Source of the DNA: Leucothrix pacifica | Lineage (GTDB): Bacteria > Pseudomonadota > Gammaproteobacteria > Thiotrichales > Thiotrichaceae | Reading direction: 5' to 3' | Length of the DNA stretch: 64,000 nt | Assembly: GCF_003172875.1 (NCBI RefSeq) | Contig: NZ_QGKM01000041.1 | Coordinates: forward strand, 1-64,000 | In this document: one piece after another, positions 30,703 through 60,258 of the stretch | How the letters are laid out: each line of letters starts with the position of its first letter | Position numbering within the stretch: position 1 is the first letter of the stretch | Notes under the pieces: generated by a model | The model's database searches: none | Told to the model about the DNA's origin: nothing | The model's input: the letters and a program-made list of their open reading frames with translations, nothing else | Made by a program: the position numbers and the translations under genes

Positions 30703-30730
30703 GCAAAATAGCATTATTTTGTGACATCAA

Positions 30731-33401: not shown

Positions 33402-33403
33402 GG

Positions 33404-35707: not shown

Positions 35708-35708
35708 A

Positions 35709-36776: not shown

Positions 36777-36896
36777 ATTATTTTGTTCGGGATACTACCA
36801 TACCAAGTGAAAAGTGCCATGGGTTTATTAAGTCTCACAACTTAGTATCGTTAAAGCACCCAACAAGTTCATTGCTAATGACGACTAGTCTACTGA

Positions 36897-38819: not shown

Positions 38820-38893
38820 TGATTCAAATACTCCGTGAACCCAAGCAATTCAATCAACTTGAGCAACTACTTTAGAGGCAACTGAAAATACAA

Positions 38894-40419: not shown

Positions 40420-40421
40420 GC

Positions 40422-41198: not shown

Positions 41199-41223
41199 AA
41201 CGTGGGTGACTCAAGGTTTTGAA

Positions 41224-42426: not shown

Positions 42427-42448
42427 AACCATTATCCCTTAATCAACT

Positions 42449-43678
42449 TCAACTGCTAGTTTTTTTTTGGTAAATGCTATTTATATCAATAGCCTTTTGC
42501 TCCCACGACAACTCACTTGCTTTTTGCTGAGCCCCATGAGCTATATTTTGACGATAAGCTTCATCAGTAGCTAATCGAGTTACAGCCGCTGCGAAATCTC
42601 TAACCACTTGATTGGGGGTTGTAACTTCTACTTTAATACCACATGTATCATCAACAACACCGGCAAACCCACAATGATCTAAGCAGACAATAGGGAGTCC
42701 ACATGCAAGCGACTCCACTGTGACTGTTGACGTCAAATCGCGTAAACTGGTTATTAACATTACGTGGCTGTCCAGCATTACTTTCAGAACCTCGCTACGC
42801 TCTAACCAGTAATGAAAATGACAATTATTATAAATACCAAGTCGCTTAGACATCAATATCCAATCTTTTGTTAAGACACCTTTACCAAGAATATGTAACT
42901 CCCATTTCAGATCCTTGGATAGAGTAGCTAATGCACGCAACGCGATATTCAAAGCCTTTCGCCTTACATGAACTCCTGTCCAAACTAAACGCAAAGGTTT
43001 ATTTTGATCACGAGCAACCACTAACCGTTTCAGTGGCGTTTGCGGAACCCCTACTTCGCACATAAGCGCACTACTTACACCCCAATACTTCAAAGCCCCT
43101 AGTTGGTTCTCTGGTGTTGCTGCAATCAACCCCTTTCCTGCTACTCTTGCAGCCATTCTGGGACGTACTGAAAAATGCATCTGCCATAAGTTGACAACGT
43201 TATATGCAAGGTAATACCCCCCCCCCCACCCCATAGCTGGAAGGAAACGTAATGGAAATAGCCCCATCCCACCAACGGGGCCCCAAACGAAAGGAACACC
43301 AAGCTTCCAAAGATAGCCTGGCTCCCTAAAACCTACCATGGTTAACTGATGCACCAAATCAAATTGAACCTCACAATGCAGTTTTTTCCCTAAATTAAAG
43401 GCATCAACGTGCCATTGCCTATAGTACCAATAATAGGACGGAGGCCAAAACTTCCTCAGCAAACGATTTCGCTTTTTCCTAATATAGTAAAAATGAACAG
43501 ACTTTAATATCTCAGGATTTTTTGAAACATACTTATCAATATCATTACGAAATTTTTCTTCTTCAACTATAACCCATAACTCATGGTGCTTGGCCAAAGC
43601 ATTGACAAACCCCCAGCCGACCCCTGGTTCGGAGCCCATAAAGGGGCTACAAGCATAAGAACTTATAAGAATTCTCAT
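42449..43678 (-). CDS. GT4-family glycosyltransferase with an internal G11 tract
   Basis: This is a 409-aa GT-B glycosyltransferase. The N-terminus LISSYACSPFMGSEPGVGWGFVNAL and the segment VPFVWGPVGGMGLFPLRF are typical of one GT4 subgroup. The C-terminal domain has LVWTGVHVRRKALNIALRAL and VTVESLACGLPIVCLDHCGFAGVVDD. The gene contains a run of 11 Gs on the coding strand (43217-43227) that encodes part of MGWGGGYY at about residues 148-156. As sequenced the frame is intact. A one-base change in the run would shift the frame about one third into the protein. The start overlaps the upstream stop in an ATGA junction. Confidence 0.85.
   Translation of the reverse strand: MRILISSYACSPFMGSEPGVGWGFVNALAKHHELWVIVEEEKFRNDIDKYVSKNPEILKSVHFYYIRKKRNRLLRKFWPPSYYWYYRQWHVDAFNLGKKLHCEVQFDLVHQLTMVGFREPGYLWKLGVPFVWGPVGGMGLFPLRFLPAMGWGGGYYLAYNVVNLWQMHFSVRPRMAARVAGKGLIAATPENQLGALKYWGVSSALMCEVGVPQTPLKRLVVARDQNKPLRLVWTGVHVRRKALNIALRALATLSKDLKWELHILGKGVLTKDWILMSKRLGIYNNCHFHYWLERSEVLKVMLDSHVMLITSLRDLTSTVTVESLACGLPIVCLDHCGFAGVVDDTCGIKVEVTTPNQVVRDFAAAVTRLATDEAYRQNIAHGAQQKASELSWEQKAIDINSIYQKKTSS
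43217..43232 (-). repeat. Homopolymer G11 with adjacent G4 inside a glycosyltransferase gene
   Basis: The plus strand shows 11 Cs, one A and 4 Cs. Such long G tracts are unusual in this window and are prone to slipped-strand mispairing, the classical basis of contingency loci. A sequencing or assembly length error is also possible. Confidence 0.85.
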
Positions 43679-45024
43679 AGTGATTCTCTGAAACTCGTTA
43701 GCATACGGTCTATTATAAAGGAAACACTTGCATCCACCGTCACCTTTACAGCCTTGCCATCACTTTCAAATAAATTTTCTGCCGAGCTAAGTTGCCTCTC
43801 TATCTCTCTCACAGTTAATTCTGGCTTTCTCGAGTGTATTACTTCTGCAGTACCATTAAGATAAAAAACAATATCAGGCTTCGGGATTGTCAATAAAAGT
43901 AAATTTATAATGCCGGATACTGAATTCACCCTAAATCTCTTAGGATCAATTATGAGATCATAAAAAAAACGATCATAAATAATTACTGTAGGTTTACTTG
44001 CAATTATTGGTCTATCTTTGATCCAATAACCTATGATGTAGTCTAAATACAAGTAAAGTACTCTGAAAATAGATACAATAAAACCCGATGGGGCCTCAGA
44101 ATGAGGTATTTGAGGAACTCCTGGTATAGCATCTTCAATACTAGACAAAGGGCGTTTCATCTTAGATAAAGGAGGGAGTAGCCCAGGGCGTAAATGACGT
44201 GTTACAACTGCATTGTGAGTCGACTCATTAAGAACAGATGATAGTTGTTTTATCAAGGTTGATTTACCAGAACCATCAGGACCAACTAAAGCAATTATCT
44301 TACCTGAAGGTGACATATATCTTTTAATTTTATCGTAAAAATCAAGCATAAAATTACATATTAAATATGGCTTTTTTTTAAGCTTTGCTTTAAAGAAAGA
44401 GGGCTCCAACCTACAGCTGATCACACTCTTTCCATTCACTAACAAGCTCTGTTGAAAAACCGTATTGACCTCGGCGATTGTAGAAGCTCCTATACATGAA
44501 AATAAGCTTTTGATTTCTTCCCAATTTTCGTTGAGACTTAAAAGCTCCTTCTCTTGAAACTTTTTTCTCACCTCTTCGCCCACTATTCTATTATTATTAA
44601 GAAGCTCTTTAAGAAACCACAAAAATACTGAAAAATAATCTGGTAATATATGTACCCCTCTATGAGTTAATGCATTAACTGCATTAAAATCATCCAGAAT
44701 ATGAAAACCTTTATAATATAGCCCTATATTAACATCCAAGCATACACCCCACCATTTTTCTTTACCCTCAGCTCCAAGCAAAGTAAGCTTCTCAAAACTT
44801 TTGGACTTGGAGCTTCCAATTATAGATATACACTCTCCACAAGAAACCTTCAAAGTACGAATAAAATCGGTATAACTATCAGGACTAATTAAAATATCAA
44901 TATCACTCCCGTTAGTACTATCTGGTAAACTCCGGTAATTTCTCATTACAAAGTAAACAACCCCTATTTCATTCAATTTCTCAAAAAAACCAACTAAAAA
45001 TTGCCTTTCCGATGTACTACCCAT
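43675..45024 (-). CDS. Nucleotidyltransferase-like / thymidylate-kinase-like fusion protein
   Basis: This is a 449-aa protein with two parts. The N-terminal part (about 1-200) resembles small nucleotidyltransferases: YFVMRNYRSLP, then GSDIDILIS at 39-47 with two metal-type aspartates, and a possible third acid in CLDVNIGLYY near 98. The C-terminal part (about 240-449) is a P-loop kinase like thymidylate kinase, with Walker A GPDGSGKS at 248-255, a LID-like arginine-rich region, and VIIYDRFFYDLIIDPKRF, a DRF-type motif. The real substrate is unknown. Its place among glycan genes suggests phosphorylation or activation of a sugar or glycan component rather than dTMP. It overlaps the downstream glycosyltransferase by 4 nt and the upstream polymerase gene by 8 nt. 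Confidence 0.75.
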   Translation of the reverse strand: MGSTSERQFLVGFFEKLNEIGVVYFVMRNYRSLPDSTNGSDIDILISPDSYTDFIRTLKVSCGECISIIGSSKSKSFEKLTLLGAEGKEKWWGVCLDVNIGLYYKGFHILDDFNAVNALTHRGVHILPDYFSVFLWFLKELLNNNRIVGEEVRKKFQEKELLSLNENWEEIKSLFSCIGASTIAEVNTVFQQSLLVNGKSVISCRLEPSFFKAKLKKKPYLICNFMLDFYDKIKRYMSPSGKIIALVGPDGSGKSTLIKQLSSVLNESTHNAVVTRHLRPGLLPPLSKMKRPLSSIEDAIPGVPQIPHSEAPSGFIVSIFRVLYLYLDYIIGYWIKDRPIIASKPTVIIYDRFFYDLIIDPKRFRVNSVSGIINLLLLTIPKPDIVFYLNGTAEVIHSRKPELTVREIERQLSSAENLFESDGKAVKVTVDASVSFIIDRMLTSFRESL

Positions 45025-46051
45025 TAAATAAGTCCATTTGTTTCAAAAGTGTCTGAACATTAGGCACGAAGCCATATATAACAACGATTGTAATTGATAA
45101 TAGTTTGACCTTCATATTCTTAGCACTAATATTACAAAGAATCAGCAGGGCCTCAATAGTGAAATTAAAGAACAGTATTCTTGATGCACTTTCCGTTTGA
45201 TCTACCAACGTAAGCATTAAAAATATCGCGAAGAAGAAAGTTCGATAAATATTTAACTCTAAATTGATTGATGAGTTATCTATCATCCAATAATAAGTAC
45301 TCAATACATAGATAAAAAACAAAGGCAAAACTTTAGATAACCCAGAATCAACCTCACTATTTCTTGTAGTAAGATTAAAATACTCTGGAAAAATAACATA
45401 TAGAACCAACGTAGCAAAAAAAGAATAAATCAAGTACAAGAAAACCCGTCTAATCTTAAAAATCTGTTTCTTATTAATTAACCTAGATTCAATCTTTTCT
45501 CTAAAAATATTGTAAATTACTATAGGTACAATAAATAATGCGCTACTCCAGTGAAATGATTGAGCTACAACCAAAAAAAAGAAACTACGAAAATATTTTC
45601 GCTTCCGGAAATTAACAATTAGGAAAATAATAAAACAAGTTGCTAGTCCTTGCCTAAGAACATTCTCAGTCGATAAAAAGTGGCTAACACTTAAAATACA
45701 AATTGATGCTACAAAGAAAATATTCTCTTTTGGTAGCACTGCTTTATACGACCAAATCATGAAAAAACTAATGAGCAACTGCAGTGCCATAATTTTACCT
45801 GTCACACTCATGTTTGGCAGAAGAAAACCTATCACGTTATAAACAAGCTGAAAGAAGTAATCTATGTTTGCTGCCTGACTCTCGAGCTGATAGACATATG
45901 AAATTAGAACATCGCCTGTGAACTTCTGAGTAAGAATTAACGGGCTAAGCAAAGTCAGCACGATTACTGAATAAAAATATTTAGTATTTTTTAATATTAA
46001 TATAATCGAAAGCACATGAGCTAGTGACCATAGAGTAATAAAAAAATTCAT
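45017..46051 (-). CDS. wzy: EpsG-like polysaccharide polymerase (probable Wzy)
   Basis: This is a 344-aa membrane protein with about 10 hydrophobic segments. The pattern LSTENVLRQGLATCFIIFLI in the middle, followed by FRSFFFLVVAQSFHWSSALFIVP, matches the EpsG/Wzy group, where an arginine and histidine in these loops are typical (N-x-x-RQ-G and S-x-H-x-S). Such proteins polymerise repeat units on the periplasmic side. It lies next to wzx, as expected for a Wzx/Wzy pathway. It is very AT-rich, as O-unit polymerase genes usually are. Confidence 0.8.
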   Translation of the reverse strand: MNFFITLWSLAHVLSIILILKNTKYFYSVIVLTLLSPLILTQKFTGDVLISYVYQLESQAANIDYFFQLVYNVIGFLLPNMSVTGKIMALQLLISFFMIWSYKAVLPKENIFFVASICILSVSHFLSTENVLRQGLATCFIIFLIVNFRKRKYFRSFFFLVVAQSFHWSSALFIVPIVIYNIFREKIESRLINKKQIFKIRRVFLYLIYSFFATLVLYVIFPEYFNLTTRNSEVDSGLSKVLPLFFIYVLSTYYWMIDNSSINLELNIYRTFFFAIFLMLTLVDQTESASRILFFNFTIEALLILCNISAKNMKVKLLSITIVVIYGFVPNVQTLLKQMDLFNG

Positions 46052-47247
46052 TTCTGCTTTGATCTATAAAAATATATGAGAAATATTTCGAATACAATAC
46101 TAGACATTATCGCACCTACTCCTCCTAGATAACTAAAAAACATGAGTACAAATGGAATGGAAAGAAAAAAGGAAGAAATCGAGCACTGAAATTGCTCTTT
46201 AAACTTACCAAACGAAGAAATTATTAACTCCATATTATTTCTTACAACCAAGAAAAGCAAATAAATCAGCCAAATAGTAACAAAAAAACTCAAGTCTTTA
46301 TATTTCTCAAAGTAATTCATATCCAAAATATACTGAACAGAAACTAATAAAAAAAGAGAATACAAAATGTAAGCCAATATCTGAACTTTAAGTGCAACCA
46401 AGGAGAGCTTTTTTACTTTATCTTTACCATTTTCAGACCTTAATTTAGTATAGTATGGTAATAAAACATTAGATAAAACCGGCATCATCATCACAAAAGG
46501 GGTAATAAAAACTCTCGACGCACTAATTTTTGCAATATCTTCTGTTACCAGAAAAAATGACGCTAAAAGTACATGCCCTTGCGACCTTATAATATAGAAA
46601 AAGTTATTGACTAATGCCCACTTACCATTTATTAACAACTTAAGAAACAACTTATAAGTACTAACAATACCTAACTGGAGGGTGAGTCTAATTCTTAATA
46701 GCATGTAAAATGTCGAGATCACCTGTACCAAACAAAACAAAAGTAACCCAGTTGTTGCACAAACCGACAAATTTTTTACTTTAAAAAAAAATAATGCTAT
46801 CAACACTATTAAAGCTGATAATATACTTCCTTCAACACAGATAATAATTCTTTCTTCTAAAAATGAATATCTCGTAAGAACCTCTTTTATCGAAAGAAAT
46901 AAAGAAGCAACTGCAACTAAAGATAATTCAATTCTATATACATCAAATAAATATGCAAATGGAATCAACAACAAAAAAAGTATTACAATCAATAAAAGTA
47001 TCAATATTATTGCTTCGAACACAACTTCATGCTTTCTTTCATTTTTACCTGAAATAAAAATTACAACTTGGGTTGTAATAAGAGCGCTTATAGAACTACT
47101 TATAAGTAGTGTAACAGAGTATAAAATACTATATAATCCAAACTCTGACTTGCTCATTAGTACCATATAAAACAGTACAAGTAAAAATGATGTAATGCTA
47201 GTTATAGCCTGATTAACCATACCAAGTGAAAACTTTTTAAAAAACAT
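46048..47247 (-). CDS. wzx: Polysaccharide repeat-unit flippase (probable Wzx)
   Basis: This is a 399-aa membrane protein with about 12 hydrophobic segments, no long soluble domain and the N-terminal pattern GMVNQAITSITSFLLVLFYMVLMSKSEFGLYSILY, typical of the polysaccharide transporter (PST) family. It should flip undecaprenyl-linked repeat units across the inner membrane. Family assignment is by architecture, the typical FG-x-Y motif after the first two helices, and the adjacency to Wzy. It overlaps the polymerase gene by 4 nt and is strongly AT-rich. Confidence 0.8.
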   Translation of the reverse strand: MFFKKFSLGMVNQAITSITSFLLVLFYMVLMSKSEFGLYSILYSVTLLISSSISALITTQVVIFISGKNERKHEVVFEAIILILLLIVILFLLLIPFAYLFDVYRIELSLVAVASLFLSIKEVLTRYSFLEERIIICVEGSILSALIVLIALFFFKVKNLSVCATTGLLLFCLVQVISTFYMLLRIRLTLQLGIVSTYKLFLKLLINGKWALVNNFFYIIRSQGHVLLASFFLVTEDIAKISASRVFITPFVMMMPVLSNVLLPYYTKLRSENGKDKVKKLSLVALKVQILAYILYSLFLLVSVQYILDMNYFEKYKDLSFFVTIWLIYLLFLVVRNNMELIISSFGKFKEQFQCSISSFFLSIPFVLMFFSYLGGVGAIMSSIVFEIFLIYFYRSKQK

Positions 47248-47261
47248 CTTTAACTAATCCA

Positions 47262-48239
47262 TCAGCAGGCCTTTTTATATTTAATGTAAATAGAGTTTAT
47301 GTCATTTGAGTCCGGATTTCTGCTCACATTATAGGAAATCATAGATATATAACTAAATCTAATTATTTTTTCCATATAGTAAAGTTTTGTATATAAGGCA
47401 GCATTTACATCAGAAACATCAAACTCTTTACTTAGTTTATGAGAAATTTCTGAAGCAGACCACCCGAGTGAATCCAAGAAGTGACAAGCATCATACATAG
47501 GTGTTTTTAATGACACCCACTCCCAGTCTATTAATTTAATGTCATCTTTTTTAAACAATATATTCCACTTGGAAAAATCCCCATGAGATAGATTTAATTT
47601 AATTCGATAATCTTTACCAAGTTTATTTATTATATCCACAAGATCATTTCTTATATTTTTATTAATAGACCTTAAAACACCATCTTTAGAATGCAAAATA
47701 ACCAAACCCAAATATCTTTTAAAATATAATTTATCTAAAAAAACTTCACTAGAAGCCGCACTGGAAATATCCAATGATATACGTAAAATTCTTTTTATAT
47801 TTTTCTTAGAGTAAAATAAAAGCTCTCTATAACCCGCATCACTTTCAAAATACAATGTATTACTATCAATTACTTTAGGTATTTGGAAACTTACCTTTTT
47901 AAGACTCTCTTTTAGCGCTTTTTCATACCTAAAAACACCTTTAGTTGACTTTTTGGCTTTTCTTTTTTTTAAGTTCTGATATATATGTACTTTTTTTTCA
48001 TTATAGTATATATAAGTGTCCTTCCCAAAAAAATGCTCTCCCCCATGCCATACACATATTAAGCTACAATCATTGCATATATTATTTTCTATACTGAGGG
48101 GTATAGACAATTTTTCGACTTTAAATTTAAAGAGACGGACTATAAGTTTAAACGGAATAACTTTAAGAACATTGAATATATCAAAAAAATTAGCGCTAAC
48201 ATGTGCTTTCTTTGATAACTGATACAGTTTTTTCTCCAT
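47262..48239 (-). CDS. APH-like phosphotransferase of the polysaccharide locus
   Basis: This is a 325-aa protein of the protein-kinase-like phosphotransferase fold. The catalytic loop is LSHGDFSKWNILF (Brenner-type H-G-D-x5-N) at about 222-234 and the metal-binding motif is IKLIDWEWVSLKTPMYDACHFL a few residues later. These are the signature of aminoglycoside/choline/Ser-Thr sugar kinases. The N-terminal lobe is basic and poorly conserved. In this setting it more likely phosphorylates a sugar, lipid carrier or other small precursor than an antibiotic. It is very AT-rich, with A8 runs in the coding strand. It touches the GT2 gene by one base. Confidence 0.78.
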   Translation of the reverse strand: MEKKLYQLSKKAHVSANFFDIFNVLKVIPFKLIVRLFKFKVEKLSIPLSIENNICNDCSLICVWHGGEHFFGKDTYIYYNEKKVHIYQNLKKRKAKKSTKGVFRYEKALKESLKKVSFQIPKVIDSNTLYFESDAGYRELLFYSKKNIKRILRISLDISSAASSEVFLDKLYFKRYLGLVILHSKDGVLRSINKNIRNDLVDIINKLGKDYRIKLNLSHGDFSKWNILFKKDDIKLIDWEWVSLKTPMYDACHFLDSLGWSASEISHKLSKEFDVSDVNAALYTKLYYMEKIIRFSYISMISYNVSRNPDSNDINSIYIKYKKAC

Positions 48240-49105
48240 TATAACTTACTCTCAACTCTTCTTTTGATTATATAAAAAACATATAATGGACTCTCAATAA
48301 TCTCCCTTACAGAGAACCTAATACCTTTCTTCCAGAAGATAATAGTTCTTATTTTTAGTAAGAAATTAGAGGCATTTTTTTCGATTTGACTGTATTCTTT
48401 CGAACTTGAAAATATGTTTCTTTGCTCAACTATCATGGCTAATAGTGTTTTCTTATTTAGCGATATATTACTATTAATTCTATAATTTCCAAGATCACCA
48501 TAGACTTTTAGCAACCCCCCACCTAGTCGAGATACACGATAATAAAACTCATGATCTGCTGAGTAGTAACTCTCATTAAAGAAACCATATTTTTCAAATA
48601 TTACCCTATTTATAGTGAGCCCAGTCATTGAAAATGGACACTTCCATAATAAACTTCTATGACTTACAGTTTCGCTACCTGTAATAACACCGTCTTTCCT
48701 TACTGACTTTGAATCACTAAAAATATTCACATCAAAACCTATTATTGTATTTAAAGGGTCTAAGCTATGATCTTTACCAATTATTTGGTCTAGTTTCTCT
48801 AAGTGATTTTCACACAAAATATCATCATCATGCAACATTACAATAAAGCTTCCACTTGCTTGTCTGACACAATGATTCCAATTACCAACCATGCCTAAAT
48901 TTTTTTTATTCTTTATATATTTAATATATTTTGTGTTACACCGTTTAATGTGTAATTCAACAGAATCCTCTTCTGGGTTATTATTACAAACTACTATTTC
49001 ATATAACTCTTTGGAATATCTTTGGTTAACAGCACTTTCAAGTGCTTCTATCAACAGCTTTTCACGCTTAAAAGTTGGAATAACAATGCTATATTTAAAT
49101 TTCAT
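48239..49105 (-). CDS. GT2-family glycosyltransferase
   Basis: This is a 288-aa inverting GT-A glycosyltransferase. The N-terminus KYSIVIPTFKREKLLIEALESAVNQRY is typical of the family. The first acidic motif is near EIVVCNNN, and the metal-binding DXD-like motif is MLHDDDILCENHLEKL at about 92-107. A later segment, YYSADHEFYYRVSRLG, holds the likely base. There is a basic C-terminal end. Donor and acceptor are unknown. It is the first gene of the AT-rich block and follows a 295-bp gap that contains a transposase remnant. Confidence 0.87.
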   Translation of the reverse strand: MKFKYSIVIPTFKREKLLIEALESAVNQRYSKELYEIVVCNNNPEEDSVELHIKRCNTKYIKYIKNKKNLGMVGNWNHCVRQASGSFIVMLHDDDILCENHLEKLDQIIGKDHSLDPLNTIIGFDVNIFSDSKSVRKDGVITGSETVSHRSLLWKCPFSMTGLTINRVIFEKYGFFNESYYSADHEFYYRVSRLGGGLLKVYGDLGNYRINSNISLNKKTLLAMIVEQRNIFSSSKEYSQIEKNASNFLLKIRTIIFWKKGIRFSVREIIESPLYVFYIIKRRVESKL

Positions 49106-49400
49106 ATCGGTCTGTCAAATTAAAGGTCATATACCATAAGCGCTATATCTAAAGTTACTCTAATCTCGACTTCAATTGATGTAACAAGATTAAGTACTCT
49201 CTATGGCAGTTATCGACGTTATTTGTAAATCCTGTAACCGTATAAGTGATTATCGAAACGGAAAATCACTCACTGGAAAGCAGCGATATCCTTGCAAAGG
49301 TTGTCGTCATTGTTTTCCAAATACATCATCATTAAAAAGCCCATGAGCCTGACGTGACCTACAAGGTTGATACATGACCCGACAATCTTTATAAAAAAAT
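49106..49400. mobile_element. Intergenic gap with an IS1-family remnant
   Basis: The whole gap between the rfbJ-like stop and the GT2 start appears to be scar DNA of an insertion sequence. It contains the insA fragment and no other gene. A sequence beginning GGTCATATACC at 49125 could be one old terminal repeat, since it lies at roughly the right distance before insA, but I see no matching right end and no target duplication. No clear promoter or terminator was found here. Confidence 0.5.
49203..49346 (+). pseudogene. insA: Degenerate IS1-type insA fragment
   Basis: A 47-codon frame opposite to the operon encodes a protein starting MAVIDVICKSCNR and continuing RNGKSLTGKQRYPCKGC. This matches the zinc-ribbon N-terminus of the IS1 transposase InsA (C-x2-C, R-N-G-K-S/T, G-x-QRY-x-C-x2-C). 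It stops early at 49344-49346. In the +1-shifted frame the following bases read EPDVTYKV, like the segment that comes next in InsA-type proteins, so a frameshift or deletion is likely. There is no insB. The element is a dead remnant within the 295-bp gap between the rfbJ-like and GT2 genes. Confidence 0.7.
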
Positions 49401-50285
49401 TCACGCGTATTCCCTTACAATACTTTTTAGACCTGTGTGTAGTAAAGCTTTAGGGCTCCAACCTAAATTAAGTAATGTTTGGTTATTTACTGCTACTGTC
49501 ATCATTTCTCCTTCGCGATAAGGTATAGACCCAAAAGAGAGTTTTGTTTCCACTGGGTTAATTTCTATTTCATATATTTTTTTTAATTGCTCTAAAAAAC
49601 TTCTAACAGTAACCAACTTTCCTGTGCCAACATCAAATTCACAGAAAGTTGGTAGCCGTGATGATTTTTCTAAAGTGATTAAATACGCAGAGACAACATC
49701 ATCTATATGAATAAAATCACGGCGCTGCTCGCCTTGTGTGAGTTTTATTTCTGTTACATTTTCTCTAAGTTGTGACAATACCCAAGGTATAAACTTATTC
49801 GTATCATCTCTTGGGCCATACATATGCTCTATTTTTAGATTGATTACCTGAACATTACCACATTGTTGCTCCAGCCATTCGACAAATTGTTTTTTAGATA
49901 GTGCATAAATATTTAAATGTTTTTGTAGCAAAGTATCTGTATTAAAAAAAGTATCTGTATTGTATTTTATACAAGCATCAAAAACTCTTAATCCGAATAA
50001 CAAATTACTCTCAACAACTTGGTGCATAGATTCACCTTTGCGCCCATAAACACAGGCAGTATGAATCACGCTATTTATGCGTTGCTCTTCAAATACCATT
50101 TCTAATGGTTGCTTATCTACATCATAACTGACAGTACTGGGAAGAAGTTTTTCGATGCGCCATGTATTTGAAGTTGAACGTTTTAGAACAACAACTTTAT
50201 GACCTTTTTCCAACAAAGCTTCAAGCAAGTGGCTTCCTAAAAAACCAGTTGCCCCTGTCAGCAAAATAGTTTGTTGTTCGCACAT
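49401..50285 (-). CDS. rfbJ: CDP-abequose synthase-like reductase
   Basis: This is a 294-aa extended SDR enzyme that should reduce CDP-4-keto-3,6-dideoxyglucose to a CDP-3,6-dideoxyhexose. The NAD motif is LLTGATGFLGSHLLEALL and the catalytic Y-x-x-x-K is in IYALSKKQFVEW. The segments FFNTDTLLQKHLN, LKIEHMYGPRDDTNKFIPW and GEQRRDFIHIDDVVSAYL match what I know of Salmonella RfbJ (abequose synthase). Paratose or another isomer cannot be excluded without alignment. It follows the RfbH gene with a 1-nt overlap, the same order as Salmonella rfbH-rfbJ. Confidence 0.75.
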   Translation of the reverse strand: MCEQQTILLTGATGFLGSHLLEALLEKGHKVVVLKRSTSNTWRIEKLLPSTVSYDVDKQPLEMVFEEQRINSVIHTACVYGRKGESMHQVVESNLLFGLRVFDACIKYNTDTFFNTDTLLQKHLNIYALSKKQFVEWLEQQCGNVQVINLKIEHMYGPRDDTNKFIPWVLSQLRENVTEIKLTQGEQRRDFIHIDDVVSAYLITLEKSSRLPTFCEFDVGTGKLVTVRSFLEQLKKIYEIEINPVETKLSFGSIPYREGEMMTVAVNNQTLLNLGWSPKALLHTGLKSIVREYA

Positions 50286-51601
50286 TAGAAGTTTACACCA
50301 AAGAATGTTTCTAGCTTGTCTGCAACATAGTCAAGATGCTCTTTATTAAGCCCAGGGTATATACCCAACCAGAAAGTTTGATTCATCGTGTTATCAGTAT
50401 TGGTTAAGTCTCCAACAACACGGTATGGTAAGTTTTGGAAGTAGGGTTGTCTGATAAGATTTCCAGCAAACAACAAGCGTGTACCGACTTTGTTCTGATC
50501 AAGGTATTTGATCAAGTCATTACGATTAGTGTCGGTGTTTTGTTTCAGCGTAATGGGGAAGCCAAACCAAGAGGGTGTTGAATTGTCAGTTGCCTGAGCA
50601 ATATCCAAGAAATCAGTCAAAGTTGCTAAGCGTTCCTTTAAGTACTGATAATTGGCAATACGCTTTGCAATAAACTCTGGTAGGCGTTGTAATTGCGCTA
50701 AGCCACACGCTGCCTGCATATCTGTGATTTTTAGATTGTAGCCAAGATGAGAATAGGTATATTTGTGATCATAACCCTCAGGAAGATCCCCTAGTTTTTG
50801 TGTAAAGCGCTGTCCACAAGTGTCATCACAACCTGGTTTGCAATAACAATCGCGTCCCCAGTCGCGGAATGATTCGGCGATACTGATAAGTTGATTATTA
50901 TTGGTGAAAACAGCCCCACCTTCTCCCATAGTAATATGGTGTGCAGGGTAAAAACTAAGCGTTGCTATATCTCCCCATGTACCGACCATTTTATTATCAT
51001 ACTTTGCACCTAGCGCATCACAACAATCTTCTACGAGCCAAAGGTTATATTGGTCACATAAGGCCTTCACTTTAGCTAGGTTAAATGGGTTGCCCAAAGT
51101 ATGCGCTAGCATGATAGCTTTAGTTTTCGGAGTAATCGCTGCCTCAATCAGTTCAACATCAACATTATGTGTTTTTAGGTCAACATCCACAAAAACTGGA
51201 ATGGCGCCAAACTGCACAATAGGATTGACTGTAGTCGGGAAACCAGCAGCAACTCCAATAACTTCGTCGCCCTTCTTAATAGCTCGCTCACCCAGCTTTG
51301 GGGAGGTCAATGTACTAAATGCAACTAAGTTAGCCGATGAGCCAGAATTAACTGTGATCAGGTGCTTAATACCAATATAATCAGCCAATTGCTTCTCAAA
51401 TTTTTCATTAAAATGACCTGTGGTCAGCCACCCATCCAAAGAGGCTTCAACCATGTATTGCAACTCTGGCTCCCCAATCACTTTTCCAGAAGGTGGAATA
51501 ATATTGGTTCCCAGCTCAAATGGTTTATCAGCGTATTGTAGTGCTGCATATTCACTAACTAATTCTGCAATTTTTTCCCTTAAAGCTTTAGTGTTTTGCA
51601 T
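50285..51601 (-). CDS. rfbH: CDP-4-keto-6-deoxyglucose 3-dehydratase (E1)
   Basis: This PMP- and [2Fe-2S]-dependent enzyme removes the C3 hydroxyl to start 3,6-dideoxyhexose synthesis, with RfbI as its reductase. It has 438 aa, the usual length. It has the aminotransferase fold, but the PLP lysine is replaced by histidine in FYPAHHITMGEGGAVF (His at about 221-222), the hallmark of this enzyme class. The iron-sulfur cysteines are C194, C252, C254 and C262, which exactly fits the known spacing C-x57-C-x-C-x7-C. It overlaps rfbG by 14 nt. Confidence 0.96.
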   Translation of the reverse strand: MQNTKALREKIAELVSEYAALQYADKPFELGTNIIPPSGKVIGEPELQYMVEASLDGWLTTGHFNEKFEKQLADYIGIKHLITVNSGSSANLVAFSTLTSPKLGERAIKKGDEVIGVAAGFPTTVNPIVQFGAIPVFVDVDLKTHNVDVELIEAAITPKTKAIMLAHTLGNPFNLAKVKALCDQYNLWLVEDCCDALGAKYDNKMVGTWGDIATLSFYPAHHITMGEGGAVFTNNNQLISIAESFRDWGRDCYCKPGCDDTCGQRFTQKLGDLPEGYDHKYTYSHLGYNLKITDMQAACGLAQLQRLPEFIAKRIANYQYLKERLATLTDFLDIAQATDNSTPSWFGFPITLKQNTDTNRNDLIKYLDQNKVGTRLLFAGNLIRQPYFQNLPYRVVGDLTNTDNTMNQTFWLGIYPGLNKEHLDYVADKLETFFGVNF

Positions 51602-52658
51602 TTTTCATTTCACTCATGTATTTATTAATTTCACTAAGGCAAATAGCTTGCATATCTTGCTTACTTAACCAAGCTTGGTGCCATTCAATAATTTTTGCCA
51701 ATGCCCTATCCAATCGCCAAGTGGGTTGCCAACCGAGTCGTGCTTTTGCTTTGGAAATATCAAGTTTCAAATAGCCCGCTTCGTGCGGATGAGCATTTTG
51801 ATCCAAAGTCCAGCTTGAACCTTCCCAGCACGACACCATGTGATTAAGTATCCACTCAACGGGTTGAGCGTCTTCATCATGAGGACCAAAATTCCAACCC
51901 TCAGCATAGCTTTCTGGCTCTTGATAAAGTTGTTGTGCCAGCAACAGATAACCGGATAAAGGTTCGAGTACATGCTGCCAAGGTCGGGTAGCGGATGGAT
52001 TCCGGATGACAACCGCTTTTTGGAACTCAAATGCCCGCAGAATATCTGGGATAAGCCGATCACTTGCCCAGTCGCCACCTCCGATAACATTACCAGCTCT
52101 AACAGAGGCCAAACCTATTCCTTTCTCTTGCATAAACGAGCGGCGATAAGCCGAAGTTACTAGCTCTGCACAACCTTTGCTGCTGCTGTAGGGATCATGA
52201 CCGCCCATCGGCTCATTTTCACGATAACCCCAAACCCATTCACGATTTTCGTAGCACTTGTCTGTCGTAACATTAATAATCGCTTTCAAACTAGTGCAAC
52301 TTTTGGCTGCTTCTAATACCTTAGCCGTACCTATCACATTGGTTTCGTAGGTTTCAATAGGCTCCTCATAAGATAGCCTGACCAAGGGTTGCGCCGCCAT
52401 ATGAATCAGTATGTCAGGATTAAACGCCGCCATGCTGGCAGTGAGCTGTACTAAGTCCCGAATATCACCAATCTCTGATTCGATTTTTTCAGCAACACGT
52501 GCTTGTTCAAACAGGCTCGGTTGAGTCGGCGGCGTTAATGCGTAACCCTTAACGGTCGCCCCTAGCGACCCCAGCCATAGAGCAAGCCAACTGCCTTTAA
52601 ACCCCGTATGACCTGTTAAATAAACTCGTTTACCTTGCCAAAAACGTTGGTCAATCAT
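51588..52658 (-). CDS. rfbG: CDP-glucose 4,6-dehydratase
   Basis: This SDR enzyme converts CDP-glucose to CDP-4-keto-6-deoxyglucose. It has 356 aa. The NAD motif is [17 protein letters not shown], with the conserved segments [39 protein letters not shown] (the TDK triad region), [13 protein letters not shown] with the Y-x-x-x-K pair, and [19 protein letters not shown]. The C-terminal end reads [11 protein letters not shown] followed by a short tail. It overlaps rfbF by 8 nt upstream and rfbH by 14 nt downstream. Confidence 0.96.
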
Positions 52659-53436
52659 TGGCTTCTTTCCATGTTTTCCATGGTGCTTGTCCTGCTTGCC
52701 ATAATTCCTCCAGATGACATTTGTCCCTCAGGGTATCCATGGGTTGCCAGAAGCCTTGGTGTTGGTATGCCATGAGTTGATCATCCTGAGCAAGCCCCAT
52801 TAAAGGCTCTTGTTCCCAAATACAGCTATCGCCATTAATACGATCAAGTACTTTAGGCGACAGCACAAAAAAACCACCATTGATCATTGCGCCATCACCT
52901 TTGGGCTTTTCTTGGAAACTCCTTACTTGCTGATTCTTGATTTCTAAGGCCCCAAAACGTCCAGGAGGAAAAGCGGCTGTTAGTGTCGCCTGTTTACCGT
53001 GTTGCTGGTGAAAAGCGATTGTTGCCTGAATATCAACATCGCTGACACCATCACCATAAGTAAAACAGAAGGACTCTTCGTCCCTCAAGTAGCTGGCAAC
53101 ACGTCCTAAACGTCCACCAGTCATTGAGTTATCACCCGTATCAACCAACGTAACTGTCCACGGTTCAGCACGTTTCTTATGAACATCCATCCGATTATCT
53201 TTCATAGAAAAAGTGACGTCCGATTGGTGGAGAAAGTAATTAGCAAAATATTCCTTAATGAAGTACCCCTTATAGCCACAACAAATGATGAAGTCATGAA
53301 TACCATGTGAAGAATACATTTTCATGATATGCCAAAGAATAGGCTTTCCACCAATTTCGACCATTGGTTTAGGCTTAGTGATAGTTTCTTCGCTTAAGCG
53401 TGTGCCTAAGCCACCTGCTAATATAACTGCTTTCAT
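52651..53436 (-). CDS. rfbF: Glucose-1-phosphate cytidylyltransferase
   Basis: This enzyme makes CDP-glucose from CTP and glucose-1-phosphate, the entry step of the CDP-dideoxyhexose pathway. It has 261 aa. The N-terminal nucleotidyltransferase signature is [37 protein letters not shown]. Further conserved parts are [25 protein letters not shown] with the metal aspartate, and [17 protein letters not shown]. The C-terminal region has [12 protein letters not shown]. It lies 18 bp after rfbI. Confidence 0.96.
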
Positions 53437-53454
53437 GGTTTAAATTGTTCTTTG

Positions 53455-54411
53455 TTAGTTTGAAGGGAGAAAAGCATCTGCGTAAAATGAACTGGGCACA
53501 AGACCAGCCTGAATAAAGTCAGACTTAGCCGCCTCAATCATAGCTGGGCTACCACACGCGAAAACATCCATTGAACTGAGACTTGGGAAGTCAGCAAGTA
53601 CTGCATGGTGGACTAACCCTGTTCTGCCTTGCCATGAAGAGCTAGGTGTAGAACAAACAGGATGATAATTTATCCATTCATAACCTTTTGCCCATTCAGA
53701 GGGTAGTATACTGTAAAATCCCTCTGCTGTTTGATTACCCCAATAAATCCATATCGGCGTAGTTTCCTGCGTCGCCAAGATAGATTGAACCATACTTTGT
53801 ACAGGCGCGAACCCTGTCCCACCCGCTAAAAAGATAAGAGGCCTCTTAGTAACGATACTGGCTTTTCGCCTAAAGAATGTTCCAAAGGGCCCTTCAAGCC
53901 GTAACAAATCATTTATTTTAGCTTGCTCAAATAAATATTGACTAAACTTACCTTGCACCACTTTGCGTATGTGTAGCTCAATTTTATCGGCCTGTGCCGT
54001 TGATGCGATGGAGTAACTACGACGGATATCACCTATAATTAGATCAATGTATTGACCTGAAATAAATGGAAGTCTTTGATTTGGCGGTAAGCGCAGTGTC
54101 AGAACAATGACATCTTCACTGGCGTATTCGAGTAAGTCGATACGGCATGGTAATGTCTTAACTTGAACGTCATTTAATTCAGTTAATAATTCAAGCTCCA
54201 ATATCATGTCTTGACTAGGTATAGTGGTACAAGTTTTGATGGTACTGGGGCTTTGGCCTTCAGACTTTACTATAGCTACACATGAGTCGCACTTTCCCGT
54301 TTTACAGCTATAGGGTAGGGCAACTTCTTGCCGTAATGCTGCTTGTAATATAGTTTCTTCATCACTTACAGTAAAAGATAAATGTGAAGGTTGGAGGGTA
54401 ACATTGTACAT
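53455..54411 (-). CDS. rfbI: CDP-6-deoxy-delta-3,4-glucoseen reductase (E3)
   Basis: This flavoprotein passes electrons from NAD(P)H through FAD and a plant-type [2Fe-2S] centre to RfbH. It has 318 aa. An N-terminal ferredoxin domain has cysteines in SCKTGKCDSCVAIV (C36, C41, C44) and TIKTC (C61). It is followed by an FAD-binding domain with RRSYSIAS and an NAD-binding domain with FLAGGTGFAPVQSMV, IYWGNQT and VFACGSPAMIEAAKSDF. The spacing C44-x16-C61 is shorter than in standard plant-type ferredoxins. The sequence is otherwise clearly of the RfbI/AscD type. Confidence 0.92.
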   Translation of the reverse strand: MYNVTLQPSHLSFTVSDEETILQAALRQEVALPYSCKTGKCDSCVAIVKSEGQSPSTIKTCTTIPSQDMILELELLTELNDVQVKTLPCRIDLLEYASEDVIVLTLRLPPNQRLPFISGQYIDLIIGDIRRSYSIASTAQADKIELHIRKVVQGKFSQYLFEQAKINDLLRLEGPFGTFFRRKASIVTKRPLIFLAGGTGFAPVQSMVQSILATQETTPIWIYWGNQTAEGFYSILPSEWAKGYEWINYHPVCSTPSSSWQGRTGLVHHAVLADFPSLSSMDVFACGSPAMIEAAKSDFIQAGLVPSSFYADAFLPSN

Positions 54412-54417
54412 ATTAAT

Positions 54418-55350
54418 TTACGGTTCTATTAGTTGCGAAAAATCAAGATATGTCTTTTGAATCCCCTGCTTTAGATTGGTTTTAGCTGCCCAACCACACG
54501 AGTGCAATAAGCTTACATCTAAAACCTTCCGCATCGTCCCATCTGGTTTACCAACATCAAATACAACCCTCCCTGTAAAACCCACCTCATCCATTATGGT
54601 TTCCGCGAGTTCCCGAATCGTCACATCCTGTCCCGTACCTATATTGAGCACTGAACCTGTATAGTCTTTCTCCATAAAAAACACACAAGCATCGGCTAGA
54701 TCGTCCACATACAAAAACTCACGCCGTGGCGTACCCGTCCCCCACACCACTAGCTCCTTATCCCCACGCAACTTTGCCTCATGCGCCTTACGTAATAGAG
54801 CGGGAAGGACGTGGCTGTTTTCCAGGTCATAGTTATCATTCGGTCCGTACAAGTTCGTGGGCATCACACTAATGTACTGCCGCCCATACTGTGCGTTATA
54901 GGCCTCACATAACTTTATCCCAGCAATCTTTGCAATCGCATACGGTTCATTAGTGCACTCCAGCGCTCCAGTAAGCAAATACTCTTCCTTAATAGGCTGC
55001 GGGCAATCACGCGGATAAATACAACTGCTACCCAAAAACATCAACCGTTGTATACCTGCTAAATGTGCTCCGTGTATTAGATTGGCTTCAATCATCAGGT
55101 TTTGATATAGGAATTCAGCTCGATAGATATTATTTGCATGAATACCACCAACTTTTGCCGCCGCAATAAAAATATAGTCCGGCTGCTCATCCGCTAAAAA
55201 CTGATGCACCGCCGCCTGATTGAGTAAATCCAGTTCCTGCCGCGAACGTGTAATAATGTTAGTATAGTCACCTGCTTTCAGACGACGCACCAAAGCGCTG
55301 CCGACCATGCCACGATGCCCAGTAACAAAAATTTTTGCATTTTTATTCAT
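54418..55350 (-). CDS. fcl: GDP-L-fucose synthase
   Basis: This is a dual epimerase-reductase that turns GDP-4-keto-6-deoxymannose into GDP-L-fucose. With the ATG at 55350 it has 310 aa. The NADP motif is [18 protein letters not shown]. Further family segments are [39 protein letters not shown] with the catalytic cysteine region, [17 protein letters not shown] with Y-x-x-x-K, and [21 protein letters not shown] start at 55374 would add eight residues inside gmd and is less likely. It overlaps gmd by 8 nt. Confidence 0.96.
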
Positions 55351-56440
55351 GGTAATTAAAGGCACTAAAGCCATGTTTTTTAGTCAACTCATCCCGTTCT
55401 GCAATCCGTAGGTCTTCCTGAACCATCTCCTGCACTAGCTCTGCAAATGAAGTACGTGGAGTCCAACCAAGCTTCTCCTTAGCTTTCGTCGGATCGCCTA
55501 ACAAGGTCTCCACTTCCGTCGGACGGAAATAACGCGGATCAACGGCCACAATACATTTACCGTTGTCATCATAACCTTTCTCATCAACCCCTTCGCCTTC
55601 CCAACGAACCTGCATTCCTAGCTCTCTGGCAGCAATCTCAATAAATTCACGTACACTGTATTGTTCGCCCGTAGCAATCACAAAATCTTCCGCGTTATCC
55701 TGCTGCAACATCAACCACTGCATTTCCACGTAGTCTTTCGCATGCCCCCAGTCACGCTTGGCATCCATATTGCCCAAAAACAAGCAATCTTGTAGCCCCA
55801 GTTTAATACGCGCCAAAGCACGGGTAATCTTACGAGTCACGAAGGTTTCACCACGCTTAGGAGATTCATGGTTAAACAAAATACCGTTACAAGCATACAT
55901 CCCATACGCCTCACGATAATTCACCGTGATCCAATAAGCATACATCTTGGCAACCGCATAAGGGCTACGCGGATAAAAAGGCGTTGTTTCTTTCTGCGGT
56001 ATTTCCTGTACCAAACCATACAATTCCGAGGTAGAGGCCTGATAAAAACGCGTTTTCTTTTCGAGCCCCAAAATACGGATGGCTTCAAGAATTCGCAAAG
56101 CACCCAACGCATCAGAGTTAGCCGTATACTCAGGCTCTTCAAAACTCACCGCAACATGACTTTGTGCCGCAAGGTTATAAATCTCATCCGGTTGCACCTC
56201 CTGAATAATACGCACCAAGCTGCTAGAATCGGTCATGTCACCATGGTGCAATACAAAGCGCTGCTCAGTCTCATGTGGGTCTTGATATAAATGATCAACC
56301 CGGTCGGTATTAAACAAGGAGGTGCGGCGTTTGATGCCGTGTACCACATAACCTTTTTCCAGTAAAAACTCCGCAAGGTATGCGCCGTCTTGTCCAGTGA
56401 CACCCGTGATTAGAGCGACTTTTTTATTAATTCCTGTCAT
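55343..56440 (-). CDS. gmd: GDP-mannose 4,6-dehydratase
   Basis: Gmd makes GDP-4-keto-6-deoxymannose, the precursor of GDP-L-fucose. It has 365 aa. The NADP motif is [19 protein letters not shown], followed by [18 protein letters not shown] and [18 protein letters not shown]. The catalytic region has [20 protein letters not shown] and the Y-x-x-x-K segment [12 protein letters not shown]. Later parts, [17 protein letters not shown] and [21 protein letters not shown], are near-invariant in the family. It lies 22 bp after manC. Confidence 0.97.
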
Positions 56441-56462
56441 TTGTAATTACCTATAAGTATTC

Positions 56463-57890
56463 CTAACTACGCCCGTAGACATCTTCAAACCGCACAATAT
56501 CATCCTCACCCAGATAACTCCCTGATTGCACCTCTATGATTTCTAAAGGCACTTTACCAGGATTACCGAGAGAGTGAGTTTCACCTAGAGGGATATAGGT
56601 AGATTGATTTTCTGTCAGCAGCAAAGTTTTATCACCACATCGGACTTCTGCCGTGCCGTTAACCACAATCCAGTGCTCTGCACGATGGTGGTGCATCTGC
56701 AAAGAAAGTTTCTCACCGGGTTTGACCACGATCCGCTTTACTTGAAAGCGCCCACCTTCATCAATGCAGTCATAGCTACCCCAAGGGCGATTGACCTCGC
56801 GATGAATACTAGCCTCGCTACGTTGTTGGTCTTTCAGTTGTCCGACAACATGTTTGACGTGTTGCACTTTGTCACGGTGTGCCACCATAACCGCGTCTTT
56901 GGTTTCAACCACCACTAAGTCATCAACACCCACTAACGTGACCAAGCGATGTTCTGCATGCACTAAGTTGCCTTTGGCCTGATGTGTTAAGACATCGCCG
57001 TGCAGTACATTCTGCTGAGCGTCCTGCTGACCCACCTCCCACACTGCTGACCATGCGCCAACATCATTCCAACCTGCATCGAGCGGTATCACGACAGCGT
57101 CTTGAGTTTTTTCCATCACCGCATAATCAATCGAAATAGCCGGTGCTGCCGTAAATGCCGCAGTATTCAAACGGATAAAATCCAGATCATGACTAGGGTC
57201 AGCAAGTGCTGCCTGACAAGCCTGTAATACCTCAGGTTGATACGCTTCAAGTGCTGCTAATAATCGATCCACACGAAACAGAAACATCCCACTGTTCCAC
57301 AAGTAATTTCCGCTATCGACATAGGTTTGCGCAGTTCCAGCATCAGGCTTTTCGACAAAAGCAGCAACACGACTGGCATCTAAATCCGTCAGACTCTCAC
57401 CCTGCCGGATGTAACCATACCCCGTTTCCGCTCGTTGCGGCACAATCCCGAATGTGGTCAGATAACCGTCTTGCGCCGCCTGTGCTGCCTGCTGGATTGC
57501 TTGGTGAAACGCGTCGTTATCCGTAATCACATGATCGGCCGGAAGCACTAGCATCAAAGCGTCGCTTTTCCCCTGCTGAGTGAGGTGTAACGCTGCTAAG
57601 GCAAGCGCAGGGGCAGTATCACGTCCAACTGGTTCCAACAAAATACCTTGATGCGCCAGCTGTAATTCACGCAATTGTTCGGCTACCATAAAGCGGTGCT
57701 CTTCATTACACACCACCAAAACATCCTCCAGATTCGGGATACCTTGCAAGCGTTGTACGGTATTTTGAAAGAGGGTCAGCTCATCCACCAAGGGTAAAAA
57801 CTGCTTTGGACGTAACTGACGTGACAAAGGCCAGAGGCGCGTACCCGAGCCACCAGATAAAATAACGGGTGTAATTGTAGGTGTCATCAT
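56463..57890 (-). CDS. manC: Mannose-1-phosphate guanylyltransferase / mannose-6-phosphate isomerase
   Basis: ManC makes GDP-mannose and, in its C-terminal cupin, carries phosphomannose isomerase activity. It has 475 aa. The N-terminal nucleotidyltransferase motif is [26 protein letters not shown]. The product-side motif is YGYIRQG followed by FVEKPDAG. The C-terminal isomerase domain has [38 protein letters not shown] and the metal-binding histidines. Its first ATG overlaps the manB stop in an ATGA junction; a second ATG follows directly. Confidence 0.97.
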
Positions 57891-59257
57891 GTGTTTTGAA
57901 TTATTTTGCTAATTAAATGTGTTTTCTGTTGCATCAGAGAAGCATCGTTGCGACTTTCGACATTGAGACGCAACACCGGCTCAGTATTGGAGCCACGTAA
58001 GTTGAACCGCCAGTTTGCAAATGCCATGCTGAGACCATCAGTCTTATCAATGTCAAGCGCATCTGACACGAAGTTTTCCTTGACTACCTCAATACTCGCT
58101 TGCGTATCCTTCACTTTGAAATTGATTTCACCACTACATGGATAGGCAGCTACACGCTCACCAACTAAGCCTGACAATGACTTACCAGTGACACACAGTA
58201 GTTCGGCCACCAACAGCCAAGGAATCATACCACTGTCACAATATGCAAAATCTCGGAAATAATGGTGCGCACTCATTTCACCACCATATACCGCATCCTC
58301 AGCCCGCATCCGTTCTTTAATAAACGCATGTCCTGTTTTGGATTGGATAGGTACACCACCGTTGGTTTGCACTATATCCACCGTATTCCACGTTAATCGC
58401 GGGTCATGGATAATCTTTGCGCCCGTTTGTTTCTGCAAGAAGGCTTCCGCTAACAAACCGACGATATAATAACCTTCAATAAAATCACCGTTTTCGTCAA
58501 ATAAAAAACAGCGATCAAAATCTCCATCCCAGGCGATTCCCATATCAGCATTATGCGCTAACACAGCACTGCTGGTATCGGCACGACACTCTGGCAACAA
58601 TGGATTCGGAATACCGTGCGGGAACGTACCGTCCGGCTCGTTATGCACCTTGATGAAAGTAACCGGCATCAGCATGCGTTGAAATTCAGCTTCGAGCGCA
58701 TCAACAACGTGCCCTGCCGCGCCATTACCTGCGTTAACCACCAACTTCACAGGCTTAAAATTATGAGGATCAATATAGCTAAGTAAGTGCTGCACATAGT
58801 CCGTCAAGCAAGACTTTTGAGTTAAAGAACCTCGTTGAGTGACCGGAGGAAATACATTAGCTTCCGCGATACGTTGGATCTCGTTCAGCCCTGTATCGCC
58901 ACTAATCGGCTTGGCGCTTTCCCGAACCAGTTTCATGCCATTATAGTCCATGGGATTGTGACTAGCTGTTACTTCAACACCACCATCCACAAACAGATGG
59001 AATGTCGCAAAGTAGACTTCCTCTGTCCCAGTCATGCCTAAGTCGATAACATTAATTCCTGCATCCATAAGCCCATTGGCCAGTGCAAGTTTGAGCGACT
59101 CAGAAGTAAGACGCACATCGCCGCCAACAACTACGGTTTTCCCAGCACTTAAGAATGTGCCGTATGCACGCCCAATGCGGTAGGCGATATCATCATTGAG
59201 TTCTTCGCCCAATCTTCCACGAATATCATAGGCTTTGAAACACGTTAACTTATCCAT
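57887..59257 (-). CDS. manB: Phosphomannomutase
   Basis: ManB (CpsG) interconverts mannose-6-phosphate and mannose-1-phosphate for GDP-mannose synthesis. It has 456 aa and begins [19 protein letters not shown], as in E. coli CpsG. The catalytic phosphoserine loop is [18 protein letters not shown], the metal-binding loop is [18 protein letters not shown], the sugar-binding loop is [13 protein letters not shown], and the phosphate-binding loop is [16 protein letters not shown]. It is the first gene after the ops element, 71 bp downstream, and so heads the RfaH-controlled operon. Confidence 0.97.
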
Positions 59258-59409
59258 GTATTTTTACTCGAAATTTTGAGCTGAAGCACAACAACCATGA
59301 ACGCACCAATCGAATTTAGCACTCCAAGCACGCTACCGCCCTGCCATGTTTTCGTAGCATCAAAGAATTATTTATTTGAAAACAGGGAATCATCCCCAGA
59401 GACACATTA
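59258..59409 (-). other. Leader region between rfaH and manB
   Basis: This 152-bp stretch carries the ops element and no gene. Upstream of ops, on the minus strand, GAAAACATGGCAG precedes the ops core and resembles the 3' part of a JUMPstart sequence. A short GGGG-ATGATT-CCC hairpin followed by TTTT lies just after the rfaH stop and could be a weak terminator. I see no clear promoter, so the operon may start upstream of rfaH. Confidence 0.5.
59329..59340 (-). promoter_or_regulatory. ops element (RfaH recruitment site)
   Basis: The minus strand reads GGCGGTAGCGTG, an exact match to the 12-nt ops core of E. coli. In E. coli this element pauses polymerase and loads RfaH from the exposed non-template strand. 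It lies 70 bp after the rfaH stop and 71 bp before manB, the right place to convert the roughly 28-kb downstream operon to antiterminated transcription. Confidence 0.92.
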
Positions 59410-59925
59410 TCAAGCCATTTTATACAAATCAGCCGGCGCAACCGTAACCTTCGCCTGCTCATTCAACACATTCATCAGCAGTATCGCTCTTTCCTCACCA
59501 CTGTAGCGCTCAAATACCGCTTCCAGCCCCTGGAAAGAACCGCTGGTGATTATAACCCGATCCCCACGATGAAAGCGATCTAAATCTATCGCCTTTTCCT
59601 GAAATTGTGCTTCACGCTGCCGAAGCTCACTAACTAGCCCGTCTGACACACTCAACGGATAATCACCAAACTGCACAAACCCGGAGACCCCATACGTCGA
59701 TCGTATTGGCGCCCAGTTATCATCCACGCGGTTCAACTGAATAAACAAATAACGGGGAAACAAAGACTCAGTCACTTTCACCAACTTACCTCTGCGACGA
59801 CGCTCTCGCATCGCAAGGGGCCGGTAAGTTGTATAACCTTGATTATTTAACTGTTCCTCGGCATAGGCTTCTTGTCGGGGTTTACTAGTCAGCACATACC
59901 AAGCCGAACTATTAATTTGAGCCAT
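59410..59925 (-). CDS. rfaH: Transcription antiterminator RfaH
   Basis: RfaH is the specialised NusG paralogue that joins RNA polymerase at ops sites, suppresses Rho-dependent termination and helps recruit ribosomes. It has 171 aa. The N-terminal NGN domain has SAWYVLTSKPRQEAYAEEQL, the basic stretch RERRRRGKLVKVTESLFPRYLFIQL and TYGVSGFVQFG. The C-terminal KOW domain has GDRVIITSGSFQGLEAVFERYSGEERAILLMNVLN, the RfaH-type ending. An AGGG site lies 7 nt before the ATG. Here the gene sits directly at the head of its likely target operon, unlike in E. coli. Confidence 0.93.
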   Translation of the reverse strand: MAQINSSAWYVLTSKPRQEAYAEEQLNNQGYTTYRPLAMRERRRRGKLVKVTESLFPRYLFIQLNRVDDNWAPIRSTYGVSGFVQFGDYPLSVSDGLVSELRQREAQFQEKAIDLDRFHRGDRVIITSGSFQGLEAVFERYSGEERAILLMNVLNEQAKVTVAPADLYKMA

Positions 59926-60258
59926 TTTGACACCCTAAAATAATTTAAATTATTCAATGAATTTCGGAAATACTACCAATCCAGAGATGAACAAGCAATC
60001 AATAACCCGGTCACCATGTCTCATTATTAAGATTTCACAACTTGATTTTATTATTGCAGCAATATTAACAATACGTGAATAATGACGTAATCTACCAACT
60101 TACAGATAAGCGGTCAAACTCATCCCAGAAGCCAACATCACTTAAACCGATACCTATAGCAAAAAAGATCGTAACAAGACGCAACATCCATCCTTACACG
60201 CCACACAACCACTCTGATAAGGTATTCGCCACTCAAACAACACTCAGGAACCACCCAA
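59926..60258. other. 333-bp divergent intergenic region between rfaH and sat
   Basis: This region separates leftward rfaH from rightward sat and should hold both promoters. A perfect 16-nt palindrome, AATAATTTAAATTATT, lies at 59939-59954, just upstream of the rfaH ribosome site. On the plus strand TTGATT (60042-60047) and TATTAA (60063-60068) are 15 nt apart, a poor match to a sigma-70 promoter. An AGGA site (60246-60249) lies 9 nt before the sat ATG. I see no gene here; the small open frames lack ribosome sites and coding character. Confidence 0.5.

Follow-up and report, generated by a model that had tools for sequence, protein, structure and literature searches.

The 64-kb stretch of DNA that we analyzed (the window) very probably carries a self-contained RfaH/ops antitermination module, in which a gene for an RfaH-type antiterminator is followed on the same strand by an exact ops element and then by a long run of polysaccharide genes. 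The rfaH gene (59410..59925, minus strand) encodes a 171-amino-acid protein of the NusG family of antiterminators that belongs to the RfaH equivalog family. Sixty-nine nucleotides past its stop codon, in the leader of the phosphomannomutase gene manB, lies the ops element GGCGGTAGCGTG (59329..59340, minus strand), matched at 12 of 12 positions, and manB begins 71 nucleotides beyond ops. The initial annotation of this DNA had placed an exact ops about 70 bp downstream of rfaH on the same strand and manB 71 bp past it, and had reasoned that rfaH, preceding ops, would not itself need RfaH; the distances and the order were borne out.

The window protein scored above the cutoff of the RfaH model TIGR01955 (E = 9.7e-50; 168.6 bits, cutoff 144.5) and below the cutoffs of the models for NusG (57 bits, cutoff 135.7), UpxY (79.4 bits, cutoff 100), and LoaP (47.2 bits, cutoff 125), which agrees with its original designation as RfaH-type and speaks against the possibility, raised with that designation, of an ordinary NusG or a LoaP-type protein. 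Its best matches in the PDB were to E. coli RfaH (E = 4e-25), and a fold search matched both RfaH and NusG chains, with which either state of the CTD is compatible. The whole assembly (5.02 Mb, 146 contigs) encodes one RfaH and, besides it, a separate NusG-like protein on contig C92. In an alignment of the window protein, E. coli RfaH, and the genome's own NusG, the Rho-binding I-F-G loop was kept in the NusG and absent from the window RfaH, which has V-L-N at this place (L145-I146-N147 in E. coli RfaH). The rfaH promoter presumably lies in the gap that separates rfaH from the divergent sat-cysC (59926..60258), in which promoter-like sites were not above chance. The sat-cysC gene itself occupies 60259-61959, and sat-cysC or cysC-like genes were also found near rfaH in three other loci (L074, L112, and L097); these recurring sulfate-activation genes may point to a sulfated polysaccharide.

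The gap between rfaH and manB measures 152 bp in total, and the ops element within it was the single exact copy both in the window and in the 5.02-Mb assembly. Assuming uniform bases, 0.0076 exact copies would be expected per 64 kb on both strands, and 8e-6 in the 152-bp gap on one strand. Run on the assembly, a model covering ops and its flanks (24 positions, built from 25 rfaH-linked sites with the window site among them) likewise matched the window site alone (E = 1.8e-4). The genome thus has a single RfaH and a single exact ops, in line with the proposal of a self-contained system. The 11-base ops core was not enriched genome-wide (12 matches versus 18 for the reversed control), and we rejected other ops variants as further targets, as none of the 12 core matches besides the window's own precedes polysaccharide genes: nine lie inside ORFs, one (L005) has neighbors on the opposite strand only, and one (L010) may stand before a TRAP transporter gene. 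The minus strand of the 152-bp gap contained no promoter-like site. A candidate terminator between rfaH and ops (59385-59397) was discarded, given that it has only a 5-bp stem, that terminator-like sites occur at chance level, and that it is absent in a related genome (G030); the leader as a stable RNA was likewise rejected, with a folding z score of 0.17, no better than shuffles.

The first gene past ops is a manB/cpsG-like phosphomannomutase gene (57887..59257, minus strand) with a product above the cutoff of NF011943 and with weak Shine-Dalgarno pairing (duplex energy −2.5 kcal/mol). It opens the presumed target operon, 24 co-oriented polysaccharide genes spanning 28.5 kb (30790..59257, minus strand); ops does head a long co-oriented run, from 59257 to 30790, although the count of manB and about 24 more genes given previously was one too many, manB being among the 24. 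The operon encodes functions for GDP-mannose/fucose and CDP-dideoxyhexose-type sugars (the latter genes being named by sequence resemblance), glycosyltransferases, EpsG-like and flippase-like proteins, WecG, a sugar transferase, and CapD-like, Wza, Wzc, and O-antigen-ligase-like proteins. The largest gaps inside it are 295, 120, and 74 bp, and its GC content falls to 28–33% at 44–50 kb, compared with 47–49% around the cell-division cluster. Median predicted Shine-Dalgarno pairing was −2.85 kcal/mol for the operon versus −7.9 kcal/mol for the neighboring division genes (p = 1e-5), a comparison that is supportive only, start codons having been set mechanically and base composition differing between the two gene sets; the weak pairing is in line with the lack of Shine-Dalgarno elements described for RfaH targets (PMC7819879). 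The 295-bp gap in mid-operon (49106-49400; 36% GC, no long ORF) has a strong predicted fold (−68.9 kcal/mol, a raw value without shuffle comparison) and could contain a promoter. Across the region, promoter-like and terminator-like sites were no commoner than in shuffled sequence. A 13-bp inverted repeat between the convergent gene ends (30729..30760) is a possible operon terminator, although its T-run is better on the plus strand.

In the mechanism that we propose, rfaH, lying before ops, would be transcribed independently of RfaH. RNA polymerase would pause at ops in the manB leader, and RfaH would bind the exposed non-template strand, exclude NusG, thereby block Rho, and aid ribosome loading, so that the polymerase could cross the AT-rich middle of the 28.5-kb operon. 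From the genes, the element and its uniqueness in the genome, the recurrent pairing, and the conserved flank, we infer binding at ops, antitermination, a single 28-kb transcript, and a role for a stem that precedes ops.

This stem was not part of the initial annotation. It is a predicted 5-bp helix (TGCTA/TGGCA, 8-nucleotide loop; 59342..59359, minus strand) with a 3′ arm that stops at −2 relative to ops, and it has counterparts at other rfaH-linked ops sites. With G-U pairs allowed, it was present at 20 of the 26 rfaH-linked sites, compared with a mean of 3.4 and a maximum of 10 in 500 controls in which the 5′ side was shuffled. Swapping the 5′ sides between sites lowered pairing from 77% to 31%, and the count of stems was highest when the 3′ arm ended at −2. 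An A at −2 was found at 25 of the 26 linked sites versus 8 of 20 chance sites, and ops 12-mers of genomes lacking RfaH had the stem no more often than expected by chance (6/20; shuffle mean 3.0). The stem was first spotted in the same 26-site data; rechecked on nine fresh rfaH-linked sites, it was present at six, and the A at −2 at all nine. In G030 it occupies the same place with a G-C to G-U change, and it is also present at a one-letter ops variant in another relative (G028), in two contigs filed as viral (L159 and L160), and in the E. coli JUMPstart, the 39-mer of which we confirmed in E. coli genomes. At sites where ops would be used in trans in Thiothrix-like genomes, the signal was weaker (13/23; shuffle mean 5.3). 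A probable role of this conserved stem is to assist pausing or to restrict backtracking; given the pause reported at U11 (PMC11001881), its base would sit about 13 nucleotides upstream of the RNA end.

Within the family Thiotrichaceae, 40 of 63 genomes encode RfaH. An exact ops follows rfaH by 68–225 bp in the window genome and in G030, G024, G035, and G036, with manB and manC after it in G030 and other sugar or transport genes in the last three, so that the proposed order of rfaH, ops, and sugar genes recurs among relatives with different sugar genes. The variant site of G028 lies 52 bp before rfaH, and in G033 neither ops nor sugar genes follow rfaH. In the 16 genomes of genus g8, which we take to be Thiothrix-like, rfaH is unlinked to ops, and exact ops copies total 64 versus 11 of the reversed pattern. 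Two Thiothrix-like genomes have exact ops pairs 69 bp apart (G048, C12:56885 and 56954; G060, C2:1699163 and 1699232). The rfaH–ops pair of G024 (L063, 10628-13068) stands directly past ftsZ at the end of a cell-division cluster; in the window, the cell-division cluster is found just past the polysaccharide operon, at its far end.

To the class as a whole the layout is no exception, contrary to what had been supposed. Among 232 gammaproteobacterial genomes drawn evenly, 49 encoded RfaH, and 22 of these (the window genome included) had a same-strand exact ops within 2.6 kb of rfaH, a lower bound because several contigs stop soon after rfaH; RfaH-like genes near polysaccharide operons had, moreover, already been published (PMC7593976). 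In the 47 loci read besides the window, 21 had such a site (18 downstream, 3 upstream), when 0.017 would be expected by chance with uniform bases, and one had an opposite-strand ops at 5.9 kb. The first gene past ops was a sugar or envelope gene in 8 or 9 of 10 loci scanned, and chance ops copies in RfaH-less genomes lay inside ORFs in 19 of 20 cases. A MarR_EPS-like gene separated the pair in 12 of the 18 loci with ops downstream; its scores against TIGR04176 (64–68 bits, cutoff 88) make it a relative rather than a certified member of that family. The intervening gene of L074, L072, L080, L112, and others is conserved and encodes about 200 amino acids with a PANRYLYY motif, a MarR_EPS-like N-terminal half, and a conserved C-terminal half (LCG.SDLAEIA..RA). 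The two contigs filed as viral (L159 and L160, from IMG/VR) have near-identical rfaH genes and ops at 1643 and 1641, about 150 bp after rfaH, but the gene past ops is galE-like on one contig and UDP-glucose-dehydrogenase-like on its counterpart; as far as their sequences tell, cargo is exchanged directly past ops. A quick tree of 88 RfaHs implied 16–17 changes between linked and unlinked states, of which well-supported branches force at least 3–5, compatible with either direction; a larger search around G163 found four genomes only.

The module reading is favored because the protein is a member of the RfaH family with the single ops 69 nucleotides past its single gene, because the same order precedes other sugar genes in relatives and recurs across the class far above expectation, because chance ops copies fall mostly in ORFs while sugar or envelope genes follow linked ones, and because the operon has weak Shine-Dalgarno pairing and an AT-rich middle. 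The 295-bp non-coding gap inside the operon counts against it, as do two features of the protein. E. coli RfaH contacts ops through K10, H20, R23, and R73 (PMC5995543), at which the aligned window protein has K, Q, N, and Y, three of the four being replaced, and an AlphaFold model (pLDDT 83) predicts a beta-barrel CTD rather than the autoinhibited helical form. Both would fit recruitment in cis without ops, by a constitutively active, NusG-like (monomorphic) RfaH that would load on polymerase as it transcribes the RfaH's own operon, with ops as a pause site or relic, and monomorphic RfaH homologs that adjoin operons and act without ops have been described (PMC13015549). We nevertheless consider this explanation unlikely: 22 of the 49 sampled genomes retain the exact 12-mer next to rfaH while spacing and surrounding DNA vary, and the model drew on a mixed 34-row alignment of mainly distant viral-contig paralogs without an E. 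coli control (an earlier model from a 3-row alignment was unusable). Moreover, the window protein keeps all four autoinhibition residues, E48, F130, R138, and L142, which suggests an autoinhibited protein. E48 was replaced in 8 of 18 downstream-linked RfaHs versus 6 of 26 unlinked ones, numbers too small to judge. At the four contact positions, the majority of ops-linked RfaHs in the class carry K, N, R, and, at 73, a hydrophobic residue, and there is little variation at Q24, T72, G74, and V75, which the window protein keeps. An unchanged ops is thus paired with changed readers, and this wide variation suggests that the four contact residues mark the E. coli type rather than the family. A late origin of R73 was inferred earlier (PMC7593976); in our own reading, R73 would be dispensable for the use of ops.

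Two further explanations concern the site and its transcript. A promoter past rfaH could start the manB transcript, with RfaH acting in trans on it, and perhaps at other places, and the linkage reflecting co-inheritance only; the extra gene or several hundred base pairs between rfaH and ops in most class loci fits such separate units, as do the Thiothrix-like genera with unlinked rfaH and several ops sites. We regard this as a possible but doubtful account of the window, where neither the exact nor the flank-aware search found a second ops-like site in the genome and where the gap is short and its minus strand free of promoter-like sites; a separate promoter would in any case leave the RfaH/ops mechanism unchanged. 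That the 12-mer matched by chance is extremely improbable: uniform sequence of 5 Mb would by itself yield about 0.6 exact copies, and the core is not enriched in the genome, but neither point accounts for its place, its strand, its recurrence beside rfaH, or its conserved flanks, which chance copies lack.

The module is of a known kind, the layout appearing new in detail and far commoner than the initial annotation supposed. Going further, it is plausible, if somewhat short of probable, that linked rfaH and ops represent a general mode of RfaH targeting in Gammaproteobacteria, that ops was read before the E. coli forms of H20, R23, and R73 arose, and that the recruitment signal comprises stem plus ops rather than ops by itself. 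If so, the published order of events, which has ops reading arise late and serve control in trans, would change. With a cassette of gene and site that is present in many families and carries interchangeable polysaccharide genes, it becomes testable how cis-encoded NusG paralogs find their operons, which residues read ops without H20, R23, and R73, and whether the stem matters; the rfaH–ops pairing would also serve as a simple predictor of RfaH targets in unstudied genomes.

Cis-encoded paralogs and RfaH near polysaccharide genes have been published (PMC7593976 and PMC7819879), and 17 of 212 metamorphic rfaH genes adjoin an operon (PMC13015549). We found no paper pairing a cis-encoded rfaH with ops in a search that took in few subscription journals, and an earlier mention is possible. 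UpxY (Bacteroides), LoaP (Bacillus), TaA (Myxococcus), and ActX (IncX plasmids) are NusG paralogs with genes inside or next to their long target operons, an arrangement that the window shares; the window protein differs from UpxY and LoaP in scoring below both cutoffs and in having ops. The monomorphic RfaH homologs of PMC13015549 likewise adjoin a long polysaccharide operon, but some of their ops-binding residues are missing and they work independently of ops, whereas the window has an exact ops that is conserved next to rfaH. In clusters CL2–CL8 of PMC7593976 (among them CL7 of Shewanella), an RfaH-like gene adjoins envelope-polysaccharide genes, as here, and CL4 lies beside an HTH regulator, an HTH gene being likewise common between rfaH and ops in our class loci; the text consulted deals with no ops sites in these clusters, and in it, as in PMC6391919, the way cis-encoded NusG paralogs find their operons is called unknown. 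The textbook case is that of E. coli, where rfaH lies far from its targets. The window differs from it in having rfaH beside the target, one ops in the genome, and replacements at H20, R23, and R73; the 39-bp JUMPstart element is not matched in its upstream letters, and the arm sequences of the stem differ. What the two systems share is an RfaH equivalog, a 5-bp stem ending at −2, and a 12-nucleotide ops identical to that of the rfb, rfa, hly, and tra operons in the leader of a long operon.
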